64,000 nt of DNA. Origin: Gelria sp. Kuro-4. GTDB taxonomy: Bacteria > Bacillota > DTU030 > DUMP01. This document shows, piece by piece, positions 25,115 through 61,164 of this stretch; the stretch's first letter is position 1, and every line of letters starts with the position of its first letter. The stretch is from NCBI RefSeq assembly GCF_019668485.1, contig NZ_AP024619.1, positions 1,735,001 through 1,799,000 of the forward strand. Reading direction: 5' to 3'. The notes under the pieces were generated by a model, which saw only the letters and a list, made by a program, of their open reading frames with translations, was not told where the DNA came from and did no database searches. Made by a program: the position numbers and the translations under genes.

Positions 25115-27223
25115 TTGCCGGAGGTTTTCCAAACCACGCTGGCCGGCCGGCCGCTCAGCGTGGAGATTGGTCACGTGGCCAAGCAGGCCGATGGCGCAGC
25201 GCTGGTGCGTTACGGCGACACCGTGGTGCTCGTTACGGCCTGCTGCTCGGATGCGCCCCGGGAAGGCATCGACTTTTTCCCCTTGACGGTGGATTATGAG
25301 GAACGGCTTTACGCTGTGGGCAAGATTCCGGGTGGTTTCATCAAGAGGGAGGGGCGGCCCAGCGAAAAAGCGATCCTTTCCGCCCGCCTCATCGACCGGC
25401 CGATTCGTCCCTTGTTCCCCAAGGGATTCCGCAATGATGTCCAGGTCATCGCGCTGGTTCTTTCGGTAGACCAGAATAACTCGCCGCAAATTGCTGCCAT
25501 GCTGGGCACCTCGGTGGCGCTTTCCATCTCCGACATCCCCTTCGACGGTCCCATCGCCGGGGTGGTGGTGGGCCTGGTGGGGGACGAGCTGGTGCTGAAT
25601 CCCACCATTGCTGAGCAGGAAACCAGCCGCCTGCATCTGACGGTGGCCGGTAAGAAGGACGCGGTCATGATGGTGGAGGCCGGCGCAGACGAGGTTGAGG
25701 AGGAGACTATGCTCCGGGCCATCGCCTTCGGGCACGAGGCCATCAAGGAACTGGTCGCCTTCCAGGAAGAGATTGTTGCCAAGGTGGGAAAGGAGAAACG
25801 CCAGGCGCTTCTTTACCGGGTGGATCCGGAGGTCGAAGCCAAGGTCCGGGAGTATGCGGAACCGAAGCTCCTGGAAGCGCTGGCCACCCCGGAAAAGCTG
25901 CAGCGGGAAGAAGCGCTGGATAAGGTGGAAGAGGATGCGGTGCTGAGCTTCCTGGAGGAGTTCCCCGAGAAGGAAAAGGACATCCGCGAGGTGGTGCACC
26001 AGCTGACGAAGGAACTGGTGCGCAGGATGATCCTTGAGCGGCACGTGCGTCCCGATGGTCGCTCCCTGGAGGAAATCCGTCCCATCAGCGTGGAGGTGGG
26101 CCTGCTGCCGCGCGTCCACGGTTCGGGGCTCTTTACCCGCGGCCAGACCCAAGTGCTGACCAGCTTGACGCTGGGGGCCGTCAGCGATGAGCAGATTCTC
26201 GACGGCCTGGGGGTGGAAGAATCCAAACGCTTTATGCATCATTATAACTTCCCGCCCTTTAGCACGGGTGAAACACGGCCCATGCGCGCTCCGGGGCGCC
26301 GTGAAGTAGGGCATGGCGCCTTGGCCGAGCGTGCTCTGGAGCCCATGATACCCGCCGAGAGCGAGTTCCCCTACACCATCCGCCTGGTTTCGGAGGTGCT
26401 GGAGTCCAACGGTTCTACCTCGATGGCCAGCGTGTGCGGCAGCACTCTGGCTTTGATGGACGGCGGGGTGCCGATTAAGGCACCGGTGGCCGGGGTGGCC
26501 ATGGGCCTCATCAAAGAGGGCGACAATTTCGCCGTGCTCACCGACATCCAGGGCCTGGAAGACGCCATGGGCGATATGGACTTCAAGGTGGCGGGAACGG
26601 CTGCCGGGATCAACGCGCTGCAGATGGACATCAAGGTCCACGGCATCACCATCGACATCCTGCGGCAGGCGCTGGAGCAGGCACGGCGCGGACGCCTGTT
26701 CATCCTGGACAAGATGCTCAGCGTGATTGACCGGCCGCGTCCCGAGCTTTCGCCCTACGCGCCCCGCATGCTCACCATGGAGATCGACCCCGACAAGATC
26801 CGGGACGTTATCGGCCCGGGCGGCAAGACCATCCGCAAGATCATCGAGGAGACGGGCGTACAGATCGATATCGAGGACGACGGACGTGTCTTTATTACCG
26901 CGGTGGATGAGAACGCCGCTCACCGGGCGCAGGAGAAGATCAAGGCCCTCACGCGCGATGTGGTAGTGGGTGAGATCTACGTCGGTCGCGTTACCCGCCT
27001 GATGAACTTCGGGGCCTTTGTCGAGATCCTTCCAGGCAAGGAAGGGCTGGTGCACATTTCCCAGCTGGCGCGGGAGCGGGTGGCGCGGGTGGAGGATGTC
27101 GTCCACGTTGGCGACGAAGTGGTGGTCAAGGTGACCGAGATTGACCGCCAGGGCAGGATAAACCTCTCGCGCAAGGAAGCCCTCAAGGCGGAAGGGAAAA
27201 AGGACAAGGCAGGTTCCCGCTGA
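25115..27223 (+). CDS. pnp: Polyribonucleotide nucleotidyltransferase (PNPase)
   Basis: Phosphorolytic 3'-5' exoribonuclease. The 702-residue protein contains two RNase PH domains (about 1-230 and 310-550) joined by a helical domain, with [18 protein letters not shown] and [19 protein letters not shown] in the second, then a KH domain ([19 protein letters not shown]) and an S1 domain ([35 protein letters not shown]). TTG 25115 follows the strong site aaggaggtt. It has its own terminator downstream. Confidence 0.97.
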
Positions 27224-31729: not shown

Positions 31730-32947
31730 ATGAGGATTGTGGTGCAGAAGTTCGGTGGGACCTCGGTGGCGTCGCCGGCGGCGCGCGAGCAGGTGGTGAA
31801 CCGTGTTCTCCAGGCCAAAAAGGAAGGGCTGGCCCCGGTGGTGGTGGTGTCGGCCATCGGCCGCAAGGGCGACCCTTATGCCACCGACACCCTCCTGGGG
31901 CTCCTCAAAGAAGCCGGGCCCGATGCTCCCAAGCGCGAGCGGGACCTGCTCCTTTCCTGCGGCGAGATTATTACCTGCACCGTGATGGCTGCGCTTTTTA
32001 ACCGGTGCGGTCAGCCGGCCATGGCCCTTACCGGGGGACAGGCAGGCATCATCACCGACGACCAGTTTGGGGATGCGCGTATTGTTGAAGTGCACCCCGA
32101 GCCGATTCTGCGGGTTCTCGAGCAGGGTTACATCCCGGTGGTGGCAGGTTTCCAGGGAGAGACGGCAGACGGCGAGGTCACCACCCTGGGACGCGGGGGC
32201 AGCGATACCACGGCCGCTGCCCTGGGGGCCGCCTTAGGGGCCGAAGCGGTGGAAATCTTTACGGACGTCGATGGCGTCATGACGGCGGATCCACGCATTG
32301 TCGATGAGGCCCACACCCTGGACGTGGTTACGTACCAGGAGGTGACGCAGATGGCCTACCAAGGGGCGAAGGTGATTCACCCGCGGGCGGTGGAGATCGC
32401 CATGCAGTACAACATCCCGCTGCGGGTGCGCTCCACCTTTACGGATTCCCCCGGGACGCTGGTCACGCGCGGCGTGCCTTACCCGGGACGCCTGGCGCTG
32501 GGGCCGGAAAGGCTCATCACCGGCATTGCCCACCTGCCGCACGTGGCGCAGCTGAAGGTTATCCTGGATCCGGGCGACAAGGCCCAAGAGGTGGAACTTT
32601 TCAGTGCGCTGGCGGCGGCCGGGATAAGCATCGACCTCATTAATGTTTTTCCGGAGCAGAAGGTGTTCACGGTAGCGGAGGCCGATGCGGCCAAGGCCGG
32701 CGAGGTGCTGAAGGCCAAGGGGTTCGCCCCTGAGCTGACGTGCGGCCTGGCGAAGGTGTCGGTGGTGGGGGCGGGGATGCGCGGCGTTCCTGGAGTGATG
32801 GCCCGCGTAGTCGCCGCCCTCTACCGGGCAGGGGTGGAGATCCTGCAAACGGCCGATTCGCACGCTACCATCTCCTGCCTGGTGCGCGGCGAGGATACCG
32901 AGAAAGCCATTTGCGCCCTGCACGAGGAGTTTGAGCTGGGCAAATAA
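31730..32947 (+). CDS. lysC: Aspartate kinase
   Basis: Phosphorylates aspartate, the first step of the aspartate family pathway. The 405 residues show the kinase motif VQKFGGTSVAS at the N-terminus, GRGGSDTTAAALGAALGAE, FTDVDGVMTADPR, and two C-terminal ACT domains (about 265-400) that normally bind lysine and/or threonine for feedback control. ATG 31730 follows agagggtag. Its place between asd and dapA matches dapG of Bacillus, the isozyme linked to DAP. The effector cannot be told by eye. Confidence 0.95.
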   Translation: MRIVVQKFGGTSVASPAAREQVVNRVLQAKKEGLAPVVVVSAIGRKGDPYATDTLLGLLKEAGPDAPKRERDLLLSCGEIITCTVMAALFNRCGQPAMALTGGQAGIITDDQFGDARIVEVHPEPILRVLEQGYIPVVAGFQGETADGEVTTLGRGGSDTTAAALGAALGAEAVEIFTDVDGVMTADPRIVDEAHTLDVVTYQEVTQMAYQGAKVIHPRAVEIAMQYNIPLRVRSTFTDSPGTLVTRGVPYPGRLALGPERLITGIAHLPHVAQLKVILDPGDKAQEVELFSALAAAGISIDLINVFPEQKVFTVAEADAAKAGEVLKAKGFAPELTCGLAKVSVVGAGMRGVPGVMARVVAALYRAGVEILQTADSHATISCLVRGEDTEKAICALHEEFELGK

Positions 32948-32966
32948 ATCTGCTGGAGGTGTTTTT

Positions 32967-33851
32967 ATGCCGGGACTGGGAACAGTTATCACAGCCATGG
33001 TGACGCCGTTCACGGAGGATCTTAAGGTTGACCTGAAACGGACGGCGGAACTGACAGAACACCTGATTGAACTGGGTTCCGACGGGCTCTTGGTCACCGG
33101 GACCACGGGCGAATCGCCGACCCTTACGGCGGAAGAGAAGGTGGCGCTGTGGGAGACGGTGATTAAGGCGGCGCGCGGCCGGGTGCCGGTGATGGCGGGG
33201 ACAGGGTCCAACAACACGGAGCAAAGCATTGCCCTGACGAAGCAGGCCCAGGCGGTGGGGGCGGATGCGATCCTGCTGGTGACACCCTACTACAACAAGC
33301 CGCCGCAGAACGCCCTTTACGCGCATTTCAAAGCGGTGGCCGAGGCCACGAAGCTGCCGGTGATGATCTACAACGTCCCCGGCCGGACCAGCCGGAACAT
33401 CGATGCGCCGACGGTTCTGCGCCTGGCCAGGGAGGTGCCTAACATCGTCGCCCTGAAAGAGGCCGGCGGCAGCCTCGATCAGGTTTCCGAAATCTGCCGG
33501 CAGGCGCCGGAAGGCTTTACGGTCTACAGCGGTGACGACAGCTTGACCCTGCCCATGCTGGCGGTGGGGGCCAAGGGTATCGTTTCGGTCGCTTCGCACC
33601 TCATCGCCGGTCAGCTGCGGGAGATGATCGCCGGCTTCGAAAGCGGGGCCTGGCAAAAGGCGCGGGACATTCATCTCAAGTTTTTCCCGCTCTTCAAGGG
33701 TCTCTTTTTCACCACCAGCCCGAGCCCGGTCAAGGCGGCGCTAAAGCTGACCGGCTTTCCGGTGGGCGGACTCAGGCTACCGCTGCTGCCGCTTACAGAA
33801 AAGGAAGAGGAGTACCTGCGCGGCATCCTGGTCGATGTAGGGCTGCTGTAA
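32967..33851 (+). CDS. dapA: 4-hydroxy-tetrahydrodipicolinate synthase
   Basis: Condenses pyruvate with aspartate semialdehyde. The 294-residue TIM barrel shows GTVITAMVTPF, LVTGTTGESPTL, YYNKPPQ, the catalytic Tyr in IYNVPGRTSRN and the Schiff-base Lys in NIVALKEAGG. ATG 32967 is chosen over an upstream in-frame codon because GCTGGAGGTG precedes it. It is the last gene before the accessory island and carries a strong terminator. Confidence 0.97.
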   Translation: MPGLGTVITAMVTPFTEDLKVDLKRTAELTEHLIELGSDGLLVTGTTGESPTLTAEEKVALWETVIKAARGRVPVMAGTGSNNTEQSIALTKQAQAVGADAILLVTPYYNKPPQNALYAHFKAVAEATKLPVMIYNVPGRTSRNIDAPTVLRLAREVPNIVALKEAGGSLDQVSEICRQAPEGFTVYSGDDSLTLPMLAVGAKGIVSVASHLIAGQLREMIAGFESGAWQKARDIHLKFFPLFKGLFFTTSPSPVKAALKLTGFPVGGLRLPLLPLTEKEEEYLRGILVDVGLL

Positions 33852-33870
33852 CGCAGTGTGCCGAATGCGG

Positions 33871-33914
33871 AGTCTACCCCAGGAGCATCAAAGCTGCTGG
33901 GGTAGACTTTTTTA
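33871..33914 (+). terminator. Intrinsic terminator after dapA
   Basis: AGTCTACCCCAG (33871-33882) pairs perfectly with CTGGGGTAGACT (33897-33908), followed by six T. This is a very stable 12-bp stem marking the end of the lysine operon. Confidence 0.92.
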
Positions 33915-34125
33915 TCCCCGGGCAGGGGGTAGAGTAAACTTTCAGCAGGTGAACAGGAGATCGAGTGTGGGATGTAGAAAGAGAGATCTCACGCAGGGTT
34001 GGACCGCAACGATCTTGGAAATATGTCGAAGTATTCCTATAGGTAGAAGGAATCTATAACCATTGTGTCGAATGACAAAGGACAGAGAAAGAGATAAGGG
34101 TTCGAAAGTAGGAGGAGAACGAATA

Positions 34126-34188
34126 GTGCCAACTAGGACACTGGTAGTATCTGGTAACGGGGGGGGGGGGGGGGGGCAGCCCTCATAA
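34126..34188 (+). other. Possible short open frame running into an 18-G run
   Basis: ggaggagaac at 34111-34120 is a good ribosome site for GTG 34126, which reads MPTRTLVVSGN and then six Gly codons from the G-run before a TAA at 34186-34188. One G fewer would extend the frame by about 20 codons. One G more gives a third ending. It may be a slippage-sensitive start, a gene remnant or chance. Confidence 0.25.
34159..34176. repeat. Homopolymeric G tract, 18 bases
   Basis: Eighteen consecutive G residues, by far the longest homopolymer in the window. Such tracts are prone to slipped-strand mispairing. A sequencing or assembly error in its length is also possible. Confidence 0.95.
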
Positions 34189-34335
34189 GTTTGATAATTT
34201 AAAATCTGACCTCAACTTGCTATTCCCCGGCGAAGGCGGCTGAACTTGACCCTGGGCTTTTCTCCAAAAGAAACAGAACTCGGGATCGGTCTTGCCTTTG
34301 TCAGGTTTTCGGCTTCTCGGGGCGTAGTATACTGC

Positions 34336-34370
34336 AAACGGGAGCTAGTGCCTGCTCCCGTTTATTTTTT
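34336..34370 (+). terminator. Orphan intrinsic terminator in the island
   Basis: AAACGGGAGC (34336-34345) pairs with GCTCCCGTTT (34354-34363), followed by ATTTTTT. No protein gene lies directly upstream, so it may end a small RNA or a lost gene. Confidence 0.75.
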
Positions 34371-34881
34371 AGTTTGGCTCCTTTGAAAACAGCGTTTTCG
34401 GTTCTTATCTTTCGTAGCAGCGTTGCTAGCGGTATGGAAGATTTCTTGATTCACCACAGTTGCTGGCACAAGAACCAGCGGCGTGCGTTTGGGCGGGCTG
34501 GAGACGGAATGAGCCAGTTGTGAGCTATTGAGCTATATTGAGGTGCCCAGCGTAAGCGTCGGGGCTAGTGTTCAAGAAGCGGCGGAGGCTATAAATGGGC
34601 CGGCAGCCTGCAGGTAACAGACGATAAAGGGAAAACCGATAGGCTGGTTGGACAGCCTGGATGTTCTACGGGCTTTTATGGGAAACCCCGGTACGGCAGA
34701 TGTCCGAGAAACAGGCATAAGGGGACTTGTGCGTACATCAAAGAAGAGGACTATAGCAGATTACCTGAAATGAATTCCTGGGCCAGACAAAGGCGGACCG
34801 TATTCCCCATCTTACCACTGCTCGGGAGAGACGCGGGTCTCATCGCGGCACATTGACTACTACGGGAGGTCCTGGAAAGTT

Positions 34882-35613
34882 ATGACCGGGAAGCGGGAGC
34901 TAAGCAAAGAAGCCGAGACACGGCTTGAGCGGTTGGGCCACACCCAAGAGTTTGAAAAGGCCCTGCCCAACCTTTTTACCGATCCCAGAGCAGTAGTGTC
35001 GCAGCTCAAATCCATAGTGGAATATCAAGACGAGTACGACCCGGCTACCGGAAAGATAAAGATTACTGGAGTGGTAAGGGAAGGAGTTTACCACCACGTA
35101 GTATGTATACTGCGGCTGCTGGCCCAACTACGGGAGCAAGGTCCGATGAAACTTCCCGGTATGCATCAGGAGACACTGGTCAAAACCGCTATCTTTCATG
35201 ACCTGGGCAAAGTCCAACCCCACCTGGAGGTAGGGGAAATCGTAAATCCTAAAGATGTTTTCGAGCCGGGGAAACTTCACGCTCTTAGGAGCGCTTCGCT
35301 GGCCCACAGGGTTTACCGCCTGGAGGAAAACATAGTCCAACTAATCAGGTATCACCATCATGAAGAAGTGGAAGTGCCGCCCGACTTTCCCCGTAGCCTT
35401 CTGCCCATGCACAGGCTTTTCCGGCTGCTGGACGGGCTCTCAGCGGGGATCACCCGGCGGGGTTCCAGCGTCAACTTGACGGTAAGGGAAACCGTGGTGC
35501 GGGTTAATGAAGAGAGCATCCACCCGTCCTACAACCGGTACCTGGAACTGAACATCTGCACGGGGAGGATGGAAATGAAGCCGCTAGGGCAACGCTTTGG
35601 CAGGATACGCTGA
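34882..35613 (+). CDS. Stand-alone HD-domain phosphohydrolase
   Basis: A 243-residue soluble protein with an HD fold: early His71/His72 (VYHHVVCILRLL), the core His106-Asp107 in TAIFHDLGK, a His cluster at 158-160 (LIRYHHHEEVE) and a later Asp in LFRLLDGLSAG. These are the metal ligands of HD phosphohydrolases. It lacks the GYP motif and has no sensor or output domain, so it is not a standard c-di-GMP phosphodiesterase. Substrates in the superfamily include nucleotides and cyclic nucleotides, and none can be chosen here. ATG 34882 follows gggaggtcc at a rather long spacing. The next gene is a chemoreceptor. Confidence 0.75.
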   Translation: MTGKRELSKEAETRLERLGHTQEFEKALPNLFTDPRAVVSQLKSIVEYQDEYDPATGKIKITGVVREGVYHHVVCILRLLAQLREQGPMKLPGMHQETLVKTAIFHDLGKVQPHLEVGEIVNPKDVFEPGKLHALRSASLAHRVYRLEENIVQLIRYHHHEEVEVPPDFPRSLLPMHRLFRLLDGLSAGITRRGSSVNLTVRETVVRVNEESIHPSYNRYLELNICTGRMEMKPLGQRFGRIR

Positions 35614-35751
35614 GAACGTGGTAAGGTGGCGAGTCCCAGATTCAGCGGGCCTTGTAAACACAAGGTGTCGCTACCCAAGAAAACGAAGGTACACGAAAGG
35701 AGAGTAAAAGTCGCCCCTCAGCTGGATTTCAGCGGGGTGGCCGGAAGCAAA

Positions 35752-37788
35752 ATGATAAGAAGACTTAGTGGAAGCTTGCGTACGAAAATGACTGCGCTAT
35801 TCGGACTGATTATTTTAATCGGGTGCCTTGCGCTGTTTTGGACAAGTGAAAACGAAGCCGGAAGCGCCCTGGAAGGCGAGGCCAGTCAGGCTATGTTGAA
35901 AGTGGCTGAGCAGGCAGCTGAAACCATGGACAGCCGCATCCAGGCCCGGATGTATGTAGTTGAAGGCATAGCCGAGAGAAACGTCATCCGCGGCAAGTCG
36001 GGTGACCGCGAGGCCACCCTAGAGGAGAAGCTGCAGGCTCTGCGCGATGAACAAAAAAGGGCGGAGAGCTTAGGGTTCAAGCGGTTTGCCGTCGTAGATA
36101 AAAATGGCAAGGCTATATACCAGGACGGCAGTACAGACAACTTGGCCGATAGGGAGTATTTCAACCAGGCCCTTCAGGGGATAACGTGTGTTTCCAGCAG
36201 TTTGGTAAGTAAAGTGGACCAAACCGTAATCTTTGCTTATGCTACACCAATACGGCATTATGCCACGGGCGAGATTGACGGCGTTTTGGTGGGCATAGTA
36301 GACGGGGCGAAGTTTAGCGAGCTCGTTGGAAATATTACTTACGCCCGCACCGGTTATGCATTCGCAGTAGACAGCACAGGCAAGACCATAGCGCACAAGG
36401 ACACCGAAAGAGTAACAGGACAGGAAAACATCGTAGAGCTGGCTAAGTCCAATCAGTCCCTGGCTTCTTTTGCGGCCGTAATCTCCAGAATGGCCAAGGG
36501 AGAGGAAGGAGTGGCTAACTACGCTTTCCAGGGCCAAAAGATGATTATCGCTTACGCTCCCATTAAGACCACCGGCTGGGCGACAGCTGTCACTGCCCCG
36601 AGTGCCGAGGTACTGGCAAGGGTCGCCCGTCTGAAACAGTCCATGCTGCTCGTCTCCCTTCTAATAATTCTTGCGGCTCTGCTTTTAACTTTCGTCGTAG
36701 CCAGAAGCGTCACCACGCCTCTAATCCTGGCGGTGGATTACCTGGGCCTAATTGCCGGCGGTGATTTCACGCGGCCGGTTCCCGAGCAGTTCCTGCGGCG
36801 AAAAGACGAGATAGGGAAACTGGCTCAGGCCGTGGATCGCCTGCAGGCGAGTATTAAGCCTTTGCTTACAAAACTGAAAGAAGACGCCAAGGTACTGGCC
36901 GGCACTTCCGAGAACCTGAGTGCTGCTTCGGAAGAGATCGCCTCTTCTTCCGGCGAAGTGGCCAAAGCCATCCAGCAGGTGGCCGCTGGAGCTTCTGATC
37001 AGGCCAACAACCTGCAGGAAATACTCACCCTCATGCACAACATAACCGCCAGCCTAGAGAAAGTGTACACGGAACTCGCTAACGTCACGAATAACAGCGA
37101 AAAAACATCAGGGCTGGCCGACGTAGGCAAGAAAGAGCTAGACGCGTTGATAGCGTCTATCAAGGGAGTACGGAATTCCTTTGAGGTCGTAGTCGAGAAA
37201 ATGACAAGCCTCAGCAGCTCAGTAAAACAGGTGGATCAAATCCTGGAGGTAATCAACGGAATAGCAGAGCAGACGAACCTCCTGGCCTTAAACGCAGCCA
37301 TTGAAGCGGCGCGCGCAGGTGAAGCCGGCCGCGGGTTTGCCGTGGTAGCGGATGAGGTTCGTAAGCTCGCCGAGCAGTCCCGTACTTCCTCGGACAAGAT
37401 AAGGTCGCTTCTGGCCACTATAGGTGCAGAAACAAACGACGTAGTGTCCACATCCGGTGAAGTCAGCAGGCAGGTAAGCGAGCAGCTGGGCAAGGTCGAA
37501 AACACGATTAAGGCCTTCGACAATATACTTGAAGCAGTATCTGCGATGGGTCCCATGATTACCAGAACCCGTAGTGAGGTAGACAACACGGTAAGGTCCA
37601 AAGATGTGGTGCTGGAACGAGTTGAAAGCATAAGCGCCGTAGCGCAGGAGACCTCAGCTTCGTCGCAGGAGATTGCCGCCTCGGCCGAGGAACTTTCCGC
37701 TTCTACCGAGGAGATAGCCTCGACCGCTCAAGAGGTTCTCAGCGTGGCCAAACGTTTGGAGGAACAGGTGGGACATTTCAAGGTGTGA
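35752..37788 (+). CDS. Methyl-accepting chemotaxis protein with a Cache sensor domain
   Basis: Chemoreceptor of 678 residues from ATG 35752. Membrane helix 1 (about 13-31), a large extracytoplasmic dCache-like sensor (about 33-295, including [13 protein letters not shown] and [19 protein letters not shown]), membrane helix 2 (about 298-320), HAMP, and the cytoplasmic signalling domain with the hairpin tip [21 protein letters not shown] at about 505. It should relay a small-molecule signal to CheW/CheA. The frame is open to GTG 35626, but that would add about 40 basic residues before helix 1, and ribosome sites are weak for every option. A terminator follows. Confidence 0.92.
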
Positions 37789-37810
37789 AGACTTCTCTTC
37801 TGAGAGAAGT

Positions 37811-38076
37811 TAGCTGGCGGCGTGAGATGGAATTTCTCCTTTTCGAGGGCTTCAACCAAAAGGGGAAAAGGCGATCCTGGCAGGATCGCTTTTTCTCTAC
37901 TGCCGGAGGAATTTGTTTACGCTTCTTGGCCTGGCGCTACCCTCTTCAACTCTAAGAAATCAGGCTATCGAACAATTCCCTAGGTTTCGCCTATCAACAC
38001 TCGGGCTCGTAAGCCGTTTAAGCTATTAGCGTAATCCGTTGGAGCCAGGGGCGCATTCTAAGATAGAGTAAACTCT
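37811..38076. other. Intergenic DNA downstream of the chemoreceptor
   Basis: Contains the terminator at 37871-37895 and otherwise no recognisable gene or repeat up to the first 94-bp repeat copy. The stretch agagtaaact at 38066-38075 also occurs at 33931-33940 near the island's left edge, hinting at shared mobile-element debris. Confidence 0.5.
37871..37895 (+). terminator. Intrinsic terminator after the chemoreceptor gene
   Basis: GCGATCCT (37871-37878) pairs with AGGATCGC (37882-37889) followed by five T. A second hairpin, ACTTCTCT/AGAGAAGT, lies at 37791-37810 directly after the stop codon. Confidence 0.85.
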
Positions 38077-38170
38077 TAGTAGTCATCCATGCCGCTAAAC
38101 AGCGGCACCACAAAGGATGAAATGGATAGAGGGCGAAATTGTATCGCGCTACCCGGATGAAGAAGGTCGT
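38077..38170. repeat. 94-bp direct repeat, copy 1
   Basis: Matches 41113-41206 at 90 of 94 positions without gaps. It starts TAGTAGTCATCC, contains the hairpin TGCCGCT-AAAC-AGCGGCA and ends AAGGTCGT. In copy 2 a truncated IS110-type transposase lies 150 bp further on in the same direction, so this may be a solo end of the same element. Confidence 0.9.
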
Positions 38171-38272
38171 GTTTTCCCTGGAAACAGCTTCCACGGCAGG
38201 AACTGAGCGGAAAGACGAAGAAAGAGACCCCACCGTCCTTAGGCAGGACGAGTATCGGAGATACTCAGGAGG

Positions 38273-38792
38273 GTGAGGCATCCCGAACTCTTTAGCGAGC
38301 TCTGGCAGGCCCTTCAGGACTGCGACCGGAAGGAGGTAAAGAAAATCCTTGAAGCAGCCGAGAAGGGGAGAGTCGGAAAACCGCCGACGGGCGGTACAAA
38401 AATGCCGAACCTACGTCCAACACAACTGGGACGGCATTGCCTCTTACAAGAACTACCGGGAAGAAATCGTGGGCTGCAGTGCAGAACCGCACGTGAGCCA
38501 CGTTCTGTCTGCCCGTATGAGCTCGCGTCCCATGGCCTGGAGTATAGGTGGGGCAGGTCGCATGGCACAGCTACGTGTCATGGAGGCTAACGGCTTTTCT
38601 GTGCGGGAACATTACGCTACGCTTCTCAGCTCCAGAGAACGGGGTAAACTGTCTTGTGCACCTGAGACCATACGAGCCCAGAGAACTCTCGCTGCCAAGT
38701 ATTTTGATCGTCTTCAGGCGCATTTGCCTGCTCTAGATGGTTCTCGCAACTCCCTGACCATGGTCTTAAAAAGCCTCGCGTTCCCCGCTTAA
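38273..38792 (+). pseudogene. ISLre2/UPF0236-type transposase remnant, truncated and frameshifted
   Basis: Two overlapping frames encode consecutive parts of one transposase C-terminus. The first frame gives HPELFSELWQALQDCDRKEVKKILEAA (38276 to about 38365). The second, in another frame from about 38380, gives VQHNWDGIASYKNYREEI, GCSAEPHVSHVLSARMSSRP, MAWSIGGAGRMAQLR and runs to a stop at 38790-38792. 'GCSAE.HVSHVLS.R.SSRP..W' is a hallmark of the ISLre2 family. The N-terminal two thirds are missing and a frameshift lies near 38370, so it cannot be active. Confidence 0.85.
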
Positions 38793-38906
38793 GATCCTCG
38801 CGAACCAAAACCACGACAGAAATGCCGTCGATACCATCGCTGACTAAGAGCAGGGGCCTTTCTTCTCCGCACTGACCTACGGTGCCTTGACACTATCATA
38901 CGTTGC

Positions 38907-38935
38907 TTGAGACTAACCCTTTGTTGTAGTAAAAT
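38907..38935 (+). promoter_or_regulatory. Promoter for the small-peptide gene
   Basis: TTGAGA at 38907-38912 and TAAAAT at 38930-38935 with a 17-base spacer, in AT-rich DNA just after the ISLre2 remnant. It lies 24 bases upstream of the ribosome site of the next small frame. Confidence 0.65.
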
Positions 38936-38958
38936 ATATCCTGCTGGAGGTGACATAG

Positions 38959-39036
38959 TTGAGACGCGTAAGTCTCTTACTTATTATAGGATTTGTAGTT
39001 ATCAATATTGCTGGCTTTGTCGAAGACGTATACTGA
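38959..39036 (+). CDS. Small hydrophobic peptide gene, 3' end replaced by IS1182
   Basis: TTG 38959 follows ctggaggtgaca at ideal spacing and encodes 25 residues: MRRVSLLLIIGFVVINIAGF followed by VEDVY. This is a basic start, one membrane helix and an acidic end. The TGA stop at 39034-39036 is the first three bases of the IS1182 inverted repeat, so the original reading continued elsewhere. Joining the left flank to the DNA right of the element (one TAC copy removed) would add about five codons and a stop. It could be a membrane-active peptide, a leader, or the start of a longer lost protein. Confidence 0.5.
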   Translation: MRRVSLLLIIGFVVINIAGFVEDVY

Positions 39037-40723
39037 GGTCTCTGAAAAAGCAGTAGATACTAATACTATTTCTTAGAGGATATAGCAGGAAAATGCAGAG
39101 CTGGCGTTGAAATAAGCATTATAAGAGAGCTATTTTGAGGTGATCGCCCGTGCTCAAATCAAAAGACGGCCAGCAGGACTTTTTCGACCTCCACATCTTC
39201 TCCCGGATGATCCCCGAGGACCATCCTTTGGTACAAATAAAGAAGAATGTCGATTTTTCCTTTGTAACGGGAGTGGTCGCGGACTTATATGACCCGGTGA
39301 ACGGGCGACCCAGCTATCCCCCGGAGTCCCTGTTCAGGGTACTCTTCTTGGAAGTTTGGGCGGGCCTTTCCGATGTACAGGTGTGCCGGGAGCTCAAGTA
39401 CAACGTGCTCTACCGCTGGTTCTGCGACTTTGGCTGGGACGACATAGTTCCAGATGATACTACCTTGGTGGTCTTCCGCAAACGCTTGGGAGAAGAGAAG
39501 TTCCGTGAGCTTTTCGAGCGGGTCGTTGAAGAAGCGAAAGCTAAGAAGTGCCTTCGCGGCCACTGGACGATTATTGATGGGACCAAGGTGATAGCTCACG
39601 TTGCCGTCAAGAATACCCTGAGTTTGGTGCGGGAAGGCCGTAAGCGCGTACTTAGGAATCTGGCGCGCGTCGACGCTGCCAAGGCGGAAGAACTGCAAAA
39701 TCTAGCTGCTCCGCTGCCTGATGCCGACTATTCCTCCCACACGGAGCTTCTCGCTGCCGAGATCGAGCAGGGCAAGAAATTCCTGGCAGCCGTAGGAGAC
39801 TGTACTACTGATGAGTCTGTGGGGAGAGAGTGCGCTCTTTATGCCGCCGTTCTGAACGGTGAGGGTGTAGCCAGCTTCAGTGATCCGGAGGCTCGCTGGG
39901 GCTTTAAGAAGAAAGACGAACCGTTCTTGGGATACAAAGTTCATGCGGCTTGCGATGAGACGGGCATTGTCACCGCTGTGGAGGTTACTCCAGGCAACGA
40001 AGCGGAACTTGAACCCGCCAAGGAAATGATAGCGGCCTTGGAAGAAAGGGAGTTGAAGGCATCCCGACTGGCTGCTGACAAGGGTTACGATGATTCCACT
40101 TTTCGAACGGAGTTGGTTGAAAGCAATATCAAACCCTACATTCCTAATCGCACAAAGAAAGACAGGCTTGAGGAACAAGGCTTTAAGTACAACCCAAAAT
40201 CAAAGGTTCTCCGTTGCAAAGCGGGCAAGAAGGCCATTGGCAGTACCCCTCACAAGAACGGTGGGCTGACCTATTACTTCTCGGAAAAGGACTGTGCCGC
40301 CTGTCCGTATCGTAACTCCTGCCTGAGTAAAACCGAAACCCGGAAAAGAGCCTACGTAAAACCGGAAGTCCTCGCTAACCGACCGCGAGGCATCAAAATT
40401 GCAATGCGCATCAGAAGAACAATCGAGAGAATATTCGGCGAGGCCAAAACCTGGCACGGCATGGCACGAGCCCGCTATCGGGGTCGTTTCCGCGTAGCTA
40501 TCCAGGTCTTTCTGACTTTTATCTGCCTGAACGTCAAAAAGATGGCGCAAAGAATCGCGGCTCAGCTGGCTACGGCCTGAATGTAGTGACAAAACATTCA
40601 AAGCCAGGAATATCAAGGGAAATCGGGAGTGACTTAAGCACCTAGATACACGCCAACTACCATTATGTGGCAAACCTCAGGCTTGAGAAGTGTCAAGGAG
40701 TACCGGGTTTTTCAGGGATCTCA
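39034..40723 (+). mobile_element. IS1182-type insertion sequence, complete
   Basis: A 1690-bp element bounded by near-perfect inverted repeats: TGAGGTCTCTGAAAAA at 39034-39049 and TTTTTCAGGGATCTCA at 40708-40723 (14 of 16 match). TAC flanks both sides and may be a short target duplication. It holds one intact transposase gene and separates a small peptide gene from a 104-residue membrane protein gene. Confidence 0.8.
39150..40580 (+). CDS. IS1182 family transposase
   Basis: A 476-residue DDE transposase, intact. The N-terminal DUF772-type domain has YDPVNGRPSYPPESLFRVLFLEVW and LKYNVLYRWFCDF. Catalytic acids are expected in WTIIDGTKVIAHV, in the DETGIVTAVEVTPGNEAE region and in AADKGYDDSTF. 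A zinc-binding insert follows (CRAGKKAIG-like through CAACPYRNSC), and the C-terminal IKIAMRIRRTIERIFGEAKTWHGMARARYRG segment is typical of IS1182. GTG 39150 has a ttgaggtgat site. No frameshift is seen, so it may still be mobile. Confidence 0.92.
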   Translation: MLKSKDGQQDFFDLHIFSRMIPEDHPLVQIKKNVDFSFVTGVVADLYDPVNGRPSYPPESLFRVLFLEVWAGLSDVQVCRELKYNVLYRWFCDFGWDDIVPDDTTLVVFRKRLGEEKFRELFERVVEEAKAKKCLRGHWTIIDGTKVIAHVAVKNTLSLVREGRKRVLRNLARVDAAKAEELQNLAAPLPDADYSSHTELLAAEIEQGKKFLAAVGDCTTDESVGRECALYAAVLNGEGVASFSDPEARWGFKKKDEPFLGYKVHAACDETGIVTAVEVTPGNEAELEPAKEMIAALEERELKASRLAADKGYDDSTFRTELVESNIKPYIPNRTKKDRLEEQGFKYNPKSKVLRCKAGKKAIGSTPHKNGGLTYYFSEKDCAACPYRNSCLSKTETRKRAYVKPEVLANRPRGIKIAMRIRRTIERIFGEAKTWHGMARARYRGRFRVAIQVFLTFICLNVKKMAQRIAAQLATA

Positions 40724-40756
40724 TACTGTACAAATTTATCATGAAAGGAGTATGTT

Positions 40757-41071
40757 ATGATTGGTTTGCTTAATCTTGGCAGCCTCGTGCTTGGTCTGAT
40801 TGCTTGGATACTTCCTGTTGTTAATCTCATGCGATATAAAAAGCATGACTATAGGAATTGGGTCACTCTTGCCATTATGAGCATCAGTGCTTGTGCTATT
40901 TCGCTATGTTTCCAGATTTTCTATAACTATCATCTGGTTAAGATTGCAGATTGGTCTGCTCTTATGGACATAACGGATAATGTGGCGTTCGTCGCAGCAG
41001 TTCTTCTCGTCGTTACCATCATTTTAAATGCAATTACTCTGCTTGTATATCATGGCAGAACAGCAAAGTAA
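40757..41071 (+). CDS. Hypothetical four-helix membrane protein
   Basis: A 104-residue protein with hydrophobic segments near residues 3-24, 36-55 and 75-96 and perhaps one more, plus conserved-looking polar loops (MRYKKHDYRNW, HLVKIADWSALMDITD). aaaggag at 40744-40750 precedes ATG 40757. The gene is AT-rich compared with the core genes, suggesting transfer. Before the IS1182 insertion it lay about 30 bases after the small-peptide gene and may have shared its promoter. I recognise similar small membrane proteins in Firmicutes but no function. Confidence 0.65.
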   Translation: MIGLLNLGSLVLGLIAWILPVVNLMRYKKHDYRNWVTLAIMSISACAISLCFQIFYNYHLVKIADWSALMDITDNVAFVAAVLLVVTIILNAITLLVYHGRTAK

Positions 41072-41112
41072 GATGTCACAAAAGTAGAAACTCGGGAAAG
41101 AGTATTACCAGA

Positions 41113-41206
41113 TAGTAGTCATCCATGCCGCTGAATAGCGGCACCACAAAGGATGAAATGAATAGAGGGCGAACTTGTATCGCGCTACCCGGATGAAGAA
41201 GGTCGT
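41113..41206. repeat. 94-bp direct repeat, copy 2
   Basis: Same sequence as 38077-38170 with four substitutions, including two within the hairpin loop (AAAC versus GAAT) that leave the TGCCGCT/AGCGGCA stem intact. It lies upstream of a truncated IS110-type transposase and may be the non-coding end of that element. Between repeat and transposase are two GCGATCGC palindromes (41249-41256 and 41316-41323). Confidence 0.9.
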
Positions 41207-41352
41207 TTTCCCTTGGTGCCGATAAGCCCGATTAGGAGTCTGACCTCGGCGATCGCAGGGGCGCCGCAAAATGTAGCCTCCGAGGGGAGAGCACGCGAAG
41301 GAGAGCCGCATAAGGGCGATCGCCGCGCCGGGAAAAACGGAGGGTTAAGGCG

Positions 41353-41580
41353 ATGCAAGTGACCTATGAACGTTGTGGCGGGTTGGATGTTCACAAAAAA
41401 AGTATGACTGCGTGTGTCATCACCTCAGAAGGAAAAGAAACGCGGACGTATGGGACAATGACCCACCCCATCTCCGGGCAGTCTTGGTTCGAGCAGCTCG
41501 TGCTGCAGCGCGGACAAAAGGGACTTATCTATCTGCCCTCTATCACCGGCTTGCGGCTCGTCGGGGGCGTGCCCTTGTGA
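41353..41580 (+). pseudogene. IS110 family transposase, N-terminal fragment
   Basis: The first ~38 residues (MQVTYERCGGLDVHKKSMTA, then CVITSEGKETRTYGTMT) are the RuvC-like start of IS110/IS1111 transposases, with the first catalytic Asp in GLDVHKK. After about position 41465 the reading no longer resembles the family, and a stop comes at 41578-41580. Over 300 residues are missing, so this is a dead remnant whose 3' part was lost at the island's right border. Confidence 0.85.
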
Positions 41581-41603
41581 AGCGGCAGGAATTAGGGTAT
41601 AAT
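41575..41603 (+). promoter_or_regulatory. Promoter of the RNase J gene
   Basis: TTGTGA at 41575-41580 and a perfect TATAAT at 41598-41603, 17 bases apart. The -35 box lies exactly at the end of the IS110 fragment, so the island border forms part of the promoter. Confidence 0.65.
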
Positions 41604-41653: not shown

Positions 41654-41679
41654 CCCCTGGTCGCGGCAGGGGTCTTTTT
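41654..41679 (+). terminator. Terminator-like hairpin inside the RNase J leader
   Basis: CCCCTG (41654-41659) pairs with CAGGGG (41667-41672), followed by TCTTTTT. It lies between the promoter at 41575-41603 and the start at 41709. A GGGG run just upstream (near 41640) could pair with the CCCC of the stem and act as an antiterminator. It looks like an attenuator. Confidence 0.6.
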
Positions 41680-41708
41680 GTGTTGTCTAAGACAGAGGAG
41701 GTGCACTT

Positions 41709-43367
41709 TTGAGCGCAGGTGCGAAGGATAAGCTTACCCTGATTCCCTTGGGCGGATTGGGGGAACGGGGTAAAAACATGCTGCTCTTGGAAACAGAGCG
41801 GGACATCATGGTGATCGACTGCGGCCTGATGATCCCGGAGGAAGAGTTGCTGGGTATCGATTTTGTGATCCCCGACATGAGTTACCTTTTGGAAAACCGG
41901 GAGAAGGTGCGCGGCGTGGTGCTCACCCACGGTCATGAGGGGCACATCGGCGCGCTGCCTTACCTGCTCCGCGAGCTGAACGTGCCGGTGTACGGCACTC
42001 CCATGACGCAAGGGATAGCAAGCACGAGGCTCCGCCACGCGGGGGTAGGAGGCGCTCATCTCCGGAGCGTGAACCCCGGTGAGGTATTTGGCCTCGGGTC
42101 TTTTAAAGTGGAGCTGGTGACGGTGAGCCACACCCTGCCGGGGGCGGTGGCGGTGGTGGTTTCCACCCCGTGCGGCCGCGTGGTGCACACGGGGGATTTC
42201 CATTTTGACCAGACGCCGCCCAATGGAAACTTCACCGATATCCACCGCCTGGCCGAGCTGGGGCGGGAAGGCGTGCTGCTGCTGCTCTCCGACAGCACCA
42301 ACGCTGAGGTGGCCGGTTTTTCACCTTCGGAGAGGGAGCCCCTAGGGGCCATCCGCAACATCTTGCGCGGGGCACAAGGTCGGGTCATTATGGTCGGCTA
42401 CGGGGCCAGCCTCTACCGCCTGGAGCAAGTGGTGGCTGCCGCCTCCGAGTTCGGGCGCCGTACCTGCGTTGCCTGGCCGGAAGGCCTGGAGCTCCTGGAG
42501 CTGGCGCGCCGGGTGGGGCACCTGCACTTTCCGCCGGAAGCCATGTTCGATCCGGCGCGGGAAAAGCTGCCGCACCAGGAACAGGTGATTATCGTTCCCA
42601 ATTTCGAGAGCCTGGAGCCGATTGCCGGCGTGCGGGGGAACGGGCGGGACACGGTGGCGGTTCAGGCAGGGGATGCGGTGGTGCTGGTGGCGCCGCCGGG
42701 GCCGGGCAGCGAGAAGCTGGTGGCCCGCAACATCGATACCCTGTTTAAGGTCGGCGCCGAGGTTTTCCCGGAACTTACCTCCTGGCGCTATTCCTTCGGC
42801 CACGCCAGCCGGGAGGAACTGAAGCTTATGCTCAACCTCGTACGGCCCCGGTTTTTTGTGCCCGTTCACGGGGAATTCCGGCAGCTGGTCTGGCACGCGC
42901 GCACGGCCCGGCAGGTGGGTATAGCGGCGGAAAACACCTTCGTCATCGAAAACGGCACCAGCGTGGAGTTTACGGCCGAAAAAGCCCGGGTGGCCAACCG
43001 GATCACCGCCGGGAAGGTTTTGGTGGATGGGCTCGGTGTGGGTGACGTGGGCAACATTGTCCTGCGGGACCGGAAACAGCTTTCCCAAGACGGCATCCTG
43101 ATCGTTGTGGTTACCATGGATAAGCAAAAGGGCCAGGTGGTGGCCGGTCCGGATATCGTTTCCCGTGGGTTTGTCTACGTGCGGGAAGCCGAAGAGCTCC
43201 TGGAGGAGGCCAAGGACCGGGTGCGGCAGGCGTTGGAAAAGTGCGAGACCGCCCACGCTACCGAATGGTCGACGATCAAAAGCCAGGTCCGGGATACCCT
43301 GGGCAAGTTTCTCTTCGAGCGCACGCGGCGTCGTCCCATGATCCTGCCCATCATCATGGAGGTGTGA
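41709..43367 (+). CDS. RNase J family ribonuclease with a substituted metal ligand
   Basis: A 552-residue metallo-beta-lactamase/beta-CASP ribonuclease acting in mRNA decay and rRNA processing. The MBL motif II reads H74-G-H76-E-G78-H79, whereas active RNase J has Asp at 78; codon 41940-41942 is GGG. Other ligands are in place (His141 in VSHTLPG, Asp163 in HTGDFHFD, and the beta-CASP GHASREE and VPVHGEFR histidines). TTG 41709 follows gaggaggtgc. Its place between dapA and tepA equals that of B. subtilis rnjB, whose product (RNase J2) is catalytically weak, so this may be a J2-like partner of another RNase J. Confidence 0.93.
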   Translation: MSAGAKDKLTLIPLGGLGERGKNMLLLETERDIMVIDCGLMIPEEELLGIDFVIPDMSYLLENREKVRGVVLTHGHEGHIGALPYLLRELNVPVYGTPMTQGIASTRLRHAGVGGAHLRSVNPGEVFGLGSFKVELVTVSHTLPGAVAVVVSTPCGRVVHTGDFHFDQTPPNGNFTDIHRLAELGREGVLLLLSDSTNAEVAGFSPSEREPLGAIRNILRGAQGRVIMVGYGASLYRLEQVVAAASEFGRRTCVAWPEGLELLELARRVGHLHFPPEAMFDPAREKLPHQEQVIIVPNFESLEPIAGVRGNGRDTVAVQAGDAVVLVAPPGPGSEKLVARNIDTLFKVGAEVFPELTSWRYSFGHASREELKLMLNLVRPRFFVPVHGEFRQLVWHARTARQVGIAAENTFVIENGTSVEFTAEKARVANRITAGKVLVDGLGVGDVGNIVLRDRKQLSQDGILIVVVTMDKQKGQVVAGPDIVSRGFVYVREAEELLEEAKDRVRQALEKCETAHATEWSTIKSQVRDTLGKFLFERTRRRPMILPIIMEV

Positions 43368-43508: not shown

Positions 43509-43584
43509 CTTGCCGGCGGCAGGGTATACTGTCCGCCGCCTTACGTCATACTAGCCACGGGACATGAGTAAGGGAGGACGGCTG

Positions 43585-44391
43585 ATGGTGTTGACGAATC
43601 TTTTCCCTAAACTGGGTTCTCCCCAGCCGGTACCGACGGTGGTTCCACCGCCCGGCCCCCGGGTACAGCCGCCGCCCGGCCCGGGGAACCCGGGTGCCCA
43701 ACCCCGGCCGGCTCCGGAAACGGCGGCGGGTAACCTCCAGGAGCTGGGGCAAATGAACCTGCCGGCACAGCCGGAGAGCAGCATCCACTGCCTCACCATT
43801 GTCGGTCAGATCGAGGGGCACCTGGTGCTGCCGCCCCAGAACAAAACCACCAAGTATGAACACATCATTCCCCAACTCGTGGCCGTGGAGCAAAACCCCA
43901 AGATTGCCGGACTGCTGCTCATCTTAAACACGGTCGGGGGTGACGTGGAGGCCGGGTTGGCCATCGCCGAGATGATCTCCACCCTGGGCAAGCCCACCGT
44001 CTCCCTTGTGCTCGGGGGCGGGCACAGCATCGGGGTGCCGATCGCGGTGAGCGCCGATTACTCCTTTATCGCGGAAACGGCCACCATGACGGTGCATCCC
44101 ATCCGGCTCAACGGTCTGGTGATTGGCGTACCGCAAACCTATGAATACCTGGACAAGATGCAGGACCGGGTGGTCCGGTTTGTCACGGAGCACGCGCGCA
44201 TTTCTGAGGCCAAATTCCGGGAGCTGATGTTTCGTACCGGCGAGCTCGCCCGCGACATCGGGACGGTGCTGGTGGGCAAAGAGGCGGTGGACGTCGGGTT
44301 GGTGGATGCCGTCGGGGGTATTGAGTCGGCACTGGCCAAGCTTAACGAGATGACGGCAAAAGCAACAGGAGAAAAGGAGCCGGTGCAATGA
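43585..44391 (+). CDS. tepA: ClpP-class serine protease TepA
   Basis: A 268-residue ClpP/crotonase-fold protein. A Pro/Gly-rich N-terminal tail (about 1-60) precedes the protease domain with [20 protein letters not shown], the nucleophile Ser in [18 protein letters not shown], and the His in [12 protein letters not shown]. It corresponds to Bacillus TepA (YmfB), reported to assist preprotein translocation. ATG 43585 is preferred over ATG 43564 because agggagg lies between them. It overlaps ylzJ by 4 bases. Confidence 0.9.
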
Positions 44392-59613: not shown

Positions 59614-61164
59614 ATGGGCATTATTGAGATCAACCTGGCAATAATGATCAGCGTCGGCGCAGCCGTGGCAGCGCTCATTGTCGGCTATGCCGCGCGCAAG
59701 TATATCGCAGAGGCCAAGATCGCCTCAGCCGAAGAGGAAGCTCGGCGGATTCTGGAAGAGGCAAAGAAGGACGCCGAAGCCAAAAAACGCGAAGCGCTGC
59801 TCGAGGCCAAGGAAGAGGCTCACCGCGTACGCAGCGAACTCGAGCGGGAAAACCGTGAACGCCGGGCCGAGCTGCAGCGGCTCGAGCGACGTTTGGTACA
59901 GCGCGAAGAAAGCCTGGACCGGAAGCTGGAAGGGTTAGAAAAGAAGGAAGAGCTCCTGGAGAAGCGGGAGAAGGTCATTCAGGCTACGCAGGACAAACTG
60001 GAAGAAACCTACCGTGCCCAGGTCCGGGAACTGGAGCGCATTTCGGGGCTGACGTCGGATGAAGCGCGTAACCTGCTGCTTTCCAATGTGGAGAACGAGA
60101 TTCGGCACGAAACAGCTCAGCTCATCAAGAATATCGAGACGGAGGCCAAGGAAGAGGCAGACAAGCGGGCGCGCGACATTATCGCCCAGGCCATTCAGCG
60201 CTGCGCCGCCGATCACGTGGCCGAGACAACGGTCTCGGTGGTGGCGTTGCCCAATGACGAGATGAAGGGCCGGATCATCGGCCGGGAAGGGCGTAACATT
60301 CGCGCGCTGGAGACCATGACCGGGATCGACCTTATCATCGATGACACGCCAGAGGCCGTAATCATCTCCGGTTTCGACCCGGTACGCCGGGAAGTGGCGC
60401 GGGTAGCGCTGGAGAAGCTGATCGCCGACGGGCGCATCCACCCGGCGCGCATTGAAGAGATGGTGGACAAGGCCAAGAAAGAGGTTGAAACGCGCATTCG
60501 CGAAGAGGGCGAGCAGGCCACCTTTGAAACCGGGGTCAACGGTCTCAACCCGGACCTGGTTAAGCTGCTGGGCAGGCTGAAGTTTCGCACCAGCTATGGC
60601 CAGAACGTGCTCAATCACTCCATCGAGGTTAGCCGCCTGGCGGGGATCATGGCGGCGGAACTGGGCGCCGACGTGGCACTGTGCAAGCGAGCCGGTCTTT
60701 TGCACGACATCGGCAAAGCCGTCGACCACCAGGTGGAGGGACCGCACGTGTCCATTGGTGCAGACCTGGCGAAGAAGTTCGGCGAATCGGCAGAAATCAT
60801 CCATGCTATCGCTGCGCACCATAACGATATTGAACCACGGACGGTCGAGGCCATCCTGGTACAGGCGGCGGATGCCCTGTCGGCGGCGCGGCCGGGGGCC
60901 CGCCGTGAAACCCTGGAGGCCTACATCAAGCGCCTGGAAAAGCTGGAGGAAATTGCGGACTCCTTCGATGGCGTGGAGAAGTCTTACGCCATTCAAGCCG
61001 GGCGCGAGGTGCGCATTATGGTTAAACCGGAAAAGATCGACGATCTGGCCGCGGTGCGCTTGGCCCGCGACATTGTCCGGCGTATCGAAAGTGAATTGGA
61101 ATACCCTGGTCAGATAAAGGTAAACGTTATCCGGGAAACGCGTGCGGTGGAGTACGCAAAGTAG
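59614..61164 (+). CDS. rny: Ribonuclease Y
   Basis: Membrane-anchored endoribonuclease that starts mRNA decay in Firmicutes. The 516-residue protein has an N-terminal membrane helix (about 5-25), a long coiled coil (30-200, Glu/Lys/Arg-rich), a KH domain ([24 protein letters not shown], about 210-270) and an HD domain with [14 protein letters not shown] and [12 protein letters not shown] (about 330-420). ATG 59614 follows AAAGGAGGTGA. A strong terminator overlaps its stop. Confidence 0.97.

Follow-up and report, generated by a model that had tools for sequence, protein, structure and literature searches.

The rnj gene at the rnjB locus of Gelria sp. Kuro-4 most probably (we would put it at roughly 0.7) codes for an RNase J2-like partner of RNase J1, a pseudoenzyme or near-pseudoenzyme that evolved apart from the J2 proteins of Bacilli. 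We base this reading on the loss of Asp78 and of most of the RNA channel of the beta-CASP domain and of the pocket for the 5′ end, together with the conservation of the C-terminal domain and the presence of an intact J1 in the same genome. Such a protein would have little or no 5′-3′ exonuclease activity left, would bind intact J1 via the dimer interface and the C-terminal domain and, as proposed for Bacilli J2, would stabilise, localise or tune it, its dose perhaps being set by an attenuator in the leader. The features of the gene and of its surroundings in the window (the whole stretch analysed, 64,000 nucleotides) are collected in Table 1. The same window also contains genes for PNPase (25115-27223) and RNase Y (59644-61161).

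Table 1. Features of the rnj locus in window positions, followed by the J1 gene found elsewhere in the host genome
Feature	Position	Strand	Basis or remarks
dapA, ancestral upstream neighbour	32931..33851	+	Pfam DHDPS; adjoins rnj in six relatives (L004-L009)
DNA between dapA and the rnj promoter, missing from relatives	33852..41574	.	HD-domain gene, chemotaxis receptor, DDE transposase (39150-40580), IS110 fragment (41353-41580)
Sigma-70-type promoter of rnj, TTGTGA-17-TATAAT	41575..41603	+	10/12 consensus matches
Terminator-like hairpin of the 5′ leader, with T-run, ahead of the RBS	41654..41680	+	Candidate attenuator
RBS of rnj	41696..41703	+	AGGAGGTG, aligned in seven genomes
rnj at the rnjB locus, putatively RNase J2-like, 552 aa	41709..43367	+	ORF with RBS; profile matches
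Degenerate HxHxDH motif, H74-G-H76-E-G78-H79	41928..41945	+	Sequence; Gly78 in 7/7 family orthologues
Codon 78, GGG (Gly), Asp replaced	41940..41942	+	Sequence
Beta-CASP domain, eroded, residues 205-360	42321..42788	+	YGA for FAS, WPE for GRS, NFESLEP for TGSQGEP, PGPGS for PIPGN
C-terminal domain, fully conserved, residues 430-551	42996..43361	+	Column and identity comparison
tepA (Clp-like protease), conserved downstream neighbour	43564..44391	+	Pfam CLP_protease
RNase J1 (L001), intact HGHEDH and every beta-CASP motif	361053-362702	-	Beside thiI

A degenerate metal motif in the presence of an intact RNase J1

The product of rnj, whose start codon is a TTG downstream of AGGAGGTG, belongs to the RNase J family, as it matches TIGR00649 over its full length with 488 bits (cut-off 400). 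Pfam recognises Lactamase_B, RNase_J_b_CASP (a weak match of 42 bits), RMMBL and RNase_J_C (132 bits) domains in it. With the NCBIfam model RNase_J1_RnjA it scores 555 bits, below a cut-off of 820 that is tuned to Bacilli and that the intact copy from the same genome (702) likewise fails to reach. The complete HxHxDH motif required of the RNase J family is absent from the protein, which has HGHEGH instead. In agreement with the first-pass annotation, the motif is encoded by CACGGTCATGAGGGGCAC (codons CAC GGT CAT GAG GGG CAC), and the alignment bears out its statement that His141, Asp163 and the C-terminal His (His387) were retained; in fact, ligands H74, H76, H79, H141, D163 and H387 are all present.

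Asp78 occupies a metal-2 ligand position and corresponds to Asp88 of Streptomyces coelicolor RNase J, the proposed general base (PMC4652760). It has been shown that the activity of Mtb RNase J is nearly gone when Ala replaces the equivalent of Asp78 or other Zn-2 ligands (PMC10119312), and the same kind of mutation nearly abolishes the exonuclease activity of the D. radiodurans enzyme, according to work cited in PMC4652760. By contrast, mutants of the corresponding residue of E. faecalis J2, D73, are mildly more active, J2 mutants of this species still binding J1 (PMC5383250), and the loss of Asp78 alone is, consequently, insufficient to settle inactivity. As judged from its residues, the metal-1 site (H74, H76, H141 and D163), complete together with H79 and H387, could still bind one metal, perhaps two, and the full retention of H79, D163 and H387 favours some metal binding.

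The host genome contains exactly two RNase J genes, rnj and J1. The first-pass annotation had proposed looking for a second RNase J with an intact HGHEDH, and the search recovered this J1; in the host's class, a second copy was found in 12 genomes and is intact in every one. The class is a poorly sampled one within Bacillota, the named relatives of the host being unclassified Bacillota MAGs, and 13 genomes from two families (that of the host and a sister family) were compared. All seven rnjB-locus copies of the host's family have Gly78, encoded by GGG, GGC, GGC, GGT, GGA, GGT and GGA, so that the alignment of relatives suggested earlier gives a conserved residue. As the four Gly codons are all used, Gly has persisted while its codon changed synonymously. 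Two of the five sister-family copies also have Gly78, and Asp78 is found in every one of the intact RNase J proteins aligned (42 rows) as well as in the 12 second copies from the class. A single transition of the GAC-to-GGC type would be enough to produce Gly by a sequencing or assembly error. However, Gly78 recurs in eight other genomes of the class with differing Gly codons, which rules out this explanation and leaves it a negligible probability.

When 84,980 named genomes were scanned for HGH[ED]GH, a pattern that registers a change of Asp78 only in this exact local motif, 60 matches were obtained. Seven of them are inside RNase J genes, of which six belong to this class and the other to Clostridium acetireducens; the remaining matches were rejected as chance reading frames. 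Among 398 genomes of the phylum, the motif was present in eight, every one from the host's class; on inspection of the places, seven of them have it in RNase J copies alone, and one genome (G001) carries an extra chance match. A wider survey of codon 78 gave, among the matches listed, a single HGHETS (L147), which is not an RNase J. Within the class, the tree can be explained by two losses of Asp78 or, equally, by a single loss that was later reversed in one lineage. As the C. acetireducens copy, which is accompanied by an intact RNase J in the same genome, is placed elsewhere on the tree, the change from Asp78 to Gly arose more than once. In C. acetireducens DSM 10703, this Gly78 gene (L133, 4265-5932) adjoins sbcD/sbcC-like genes, the intact copy being L134.

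Erosion of the beta-CASP domain and conservation of the C-terminal domain

Asp78 as the sole lesion can be ruled out, as it is one of about 34 near-invariant positions that have been lost. Across 38 other RNase J proteins, conservation reaches 95% or more at 131 columns; 34 of these are changed in the host's family and 21 in its sister family, and the changes cluster in the beta-CASP domain. The fraction of conserved columns kept by the host's family is 0.80 in the metallo-beta-lactamase part, 0.41 in beta-CASP, 0.91 in the second lactamase part and 1.00 in the C-terminal domain, where 29 of the 30 conserved columns are kept by all seven members. Similarly, identity to intact homologues is 0.29 for beta-CASP and 0.71 for the C-terminal domain. 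When 72 proteins were ordered by this beta-CASP/C-terminal ratio, the seven family members were the lowest, and directly above them came the five proteins of the sister family together with S. epidermidis J2; the ratio thus groups a known J2 type with the proteins of the class without prior labelling.

The residues lost in the family include those known from solved structures to contact RNA, namely F42, S233, R257, S258, the SQGEP loop and S363. In the complex of Mtb RNase J with RNA, the latter is held by Ser240, Ser265, Thr305, Glu310 and Ser373 (PMC10119312), which correspond to positions 233 and 258, the T and E of TGSQGEP and position 363; in the S. coelicolor enzyme, bases are sandwiched between F52 and R267 (PMC4652760), which correspond to positions 42 and 257 (all these correspondences were assigned by motif and offset, with no superposition). 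Position 233 is now Ala, 258 is Glu, Asn or Asp, 363 is Phe, 42 is Ile, Thr or Asn, and 257 is Pro, Ser or Gln, while the TGSQGEP loop has become, for instance, NFESLEP in the host's family, so that the counterpart of its E is uncertain. Phe42 is missing from precisely the 12 proteins of the class, and all 60 remaining rows have it. Additionally, Ile20 (Mtb Ile27, located at the 5′-phosphate) is Arg in all seven members. By these sequence comparisons, the RNA channel of the beta-CASP domain is much more damaged than the metal site, and its erosion is the main loss.

It could be argued that the protein is still a nuclease with a changed chemistry, either a one-metal endonuclease or an enzyme with a new, narrow substrate, acting through H74, H76, H141 and D163 together with H79 and H387. 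Histidines would be expected to drift in a dead site, and five of the six His/Asp ligand positions other than Asp78 are invariant in the 12 class members, whereas Staphylococcus J2 has additionally lost H79, D163 and H387; moreover, S. epidermidis J2 has been reported to be an active endonuclease with one Mn (PMC7864078), and new residues (R20, A233, W256, F299, G331 and F363) are fixed in the family. However, ordinary binding of single-stranded RNA in the channel is unlikely with F42, R257, S233, S258, the SQGEP loop and S363 lost, and beta-CASP is the least conserved domain inside the host's family (identity 0.69). Consequently, we consider an altered nuclease unlikely, and a J2-like partner the better description of the protein.

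Supporting the partnership with J1, the positions that form the dimer salt bridges E424-K357 and R401-D353 in Mtb RNase J (E414, K347, R391 and D343 here) are each conserved in the seven members, as is the C-terminal domain; this conservation fits a homo-oligomer no less than a hetero-oligomer of J1 and J2. A more specific and only tentative proposal is that the J2-like partner would be a scaffold dead for RNA binding, in which channel and metal chemistry were shed while the C-terminal assembly domain was frozen, the same division of labour having occurred several times in Bacillota and the dose being adjusted through the leader attenuator. As the retained and the lost parts (C-terminal domain and beta-CASP channel, respectively) separate cleanly, this proposal is directly testable: if J2 acts through assembly alone, the rnj product would be expected to associate with J1 and make it more stable while having no contact with RNA.

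Locus, leader and origin of the gene

The first-pass annotation placed the gene between dapA and tepA. The tepA gene is indeed directly downstream and dapA is adjacent in the six relatives found, but in the host dapA is 7.86 kb away. The GC content dips to 0.53 in the middle of the inserted DNA, compared with about 0.62 around it. The inserted DNA ends just before the rnj promoter, of which TATAAT and TTGT are conserved in the seven genomes of the family; a GAGCGG element is also conserved in them, with the promoter and the hairpin, between 41575 and 41710. The leader hairpin is present in 7/7 family members and 0/5 sister-family genes, and of the intact dapA-type genes scanned 1/18 has one there; it is likely to be a transcription attenuator. 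No Rfam match was obtained near rnj, and the leader as a whole folded no better than its shuffles (z = +1.1), for which reason we restrict the claim to the local hairpin.

For rnj, dN/dS is 0.044-0.070 in those family pairs where dS is measurable, although these values are rough, as dS is near saturation in many pairs. By domain, the C-terminal one is the tightest (0.024-0.043) and beta-CASP the loosest in most pairs (0.05-0.15), whereas the beta-CASP domain of J1 is tight (0.010-0.067). The relaxation of beta-CASP, together with the fact that no rnj copy was detected in one genome (G003), might indicate the neutral decay of a redundant paralogue, that is, a pseudogene in progress. However, the neighbouring tepA is absent from that genome too, so this part of the locus is just missing from its assembly. 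Furthermore, the frame is intact in 12/12 genomes with zero internal stops, dN/dS stays at 0.04-0.10, Gly78 has been fixed through synonymous turnover, promoter, leader and RBS are conserved, and divergence is deep (75% identity across genera). Low dN/dS implies that rnj is constrained, and decay, largely refuted by these observations, is highly improbable.

In a tree of 72 proteins (IQ-TREE), the host's family and the sister family are each supported with 100/100 and joined with 99/92, while Bacilli J2 form a separate clade (100/100); the host protein thus groups with its class and is not monophyletic with Bacilli J2. The stem of the rnj family is long (0.79, compared with 0.17 for J1) and its inner branches are short, a pattern of an early burst of change followed by constraint. 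By locus (dapA-rnj-tepA), the class copies and Bacilli J2 are all rnjB. In Bacilli-type genomes, the degenerate copies have either HGHEHA or HGHEDA, the latter combined with D163E and H387Q; in the host's family, HGHEGH goes with an erased RNA channel. Given the shared locus and the separate clades, degenerate partners must have arisen there at least twice, via different residues. The first-pass annotation had suggested that a weak or regulatory partner of RNase J may have arisen here by a route of its own, a suggestion now supported by the intact J1, the family-wide Gly78 and the separate tree position; it missed the changes in beta-CASP, and the partnership with J1 is something that we infer.

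Proteins of a sister-family genus (g5), as well as L150 and L156, have altered contacts in beta-CASP but an intact HGHEDH, suggesting that loss of the RNA channel can precede that of the metal ligand. The RNase J genes L150 and L156 are linked to dapA/tepA, have the altered contacts STEAE, FASD, GKxL and SSHG, and are a possible intermediate stage of J2 evolution. One genome (G394) has four RNase J copies (L148-L151). Two other proteins, L155 and L051, have the opposite pattern, with an ordinary beta-CASP domain and a divergent C-terminal domain (identity of 0.34 and 0.43, respectively).

Comparison with other RNase J proteins

The reason why Gram-positive bacteria have two RNase J proteins, one of them nearly inactive, has been listed as an open question (PMC5289998). 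The J2 of B. subtilis assembles with J1 into a heterotetramer and is 25-100 times less active (PMC5289998), while in S. aureus an active-site mutant of J2 grows like the wild type and a J2 deletion does not (PMC3937233). Nevertheless, S. epidermidis J2 has been described as active and, together with the E. faecalis mutants, this precedent would leave room for residual activity of the rnj product.

Compared with canonical RNase J (B. subtilis J1, 3zq4; Mtb, 7wnu; S. coelicolor, 5a0t), the rnj product shares the fold over its whole length (Foldseek E down to 1e-60), five of the six motif residues and the C-terminal domain, but it lacks Asp78, the residues of the RNA sandwich (F52 and R267 in S. 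coelicolor) and the 5′-phosphate pocket. The second RNase J of C. acetireducens (L133/L135) is similar in its independent Asp78-to-Gly change and in accompanying an intact enzyme, and differs in lying away from the dapA/tepA locus and in having a mildly eroded beta-CASP domain (ratio 0.76).

The closest parallel is with the RNase J2 of Bacilli (B. subtilis, S. aureus and S. epidermidis), which is likewise encoded at a dapA-rnj-tepA locus with an intact J1 elsewhere in the genome, and which also combines a degenerate metal site and beta-CASP contacts with a conserved C-terminal domain; its separate position on the tree implies an independent loss. The first-pass annotation considered that Bacillus J2 had lost different residues, which is only partly right, as Asp78 is also lost in Staphylococcus J2 (HGHEHA in S. 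aureus and S. epidermidis). In the latter, however, H79, D163 and H387, kept in the rnj product, are all lost, whereas most of F42, the SQGEP loop, GRS and S363, gone from the rnj product, are kept. By its sequence, the rnj product is therefore an independent J2-like variant whose disarming appears more extreme than that of Bacilli J2, and the lineage of this class would represent an independent evolutionary repeat of the same outcome, more completely disarmed.
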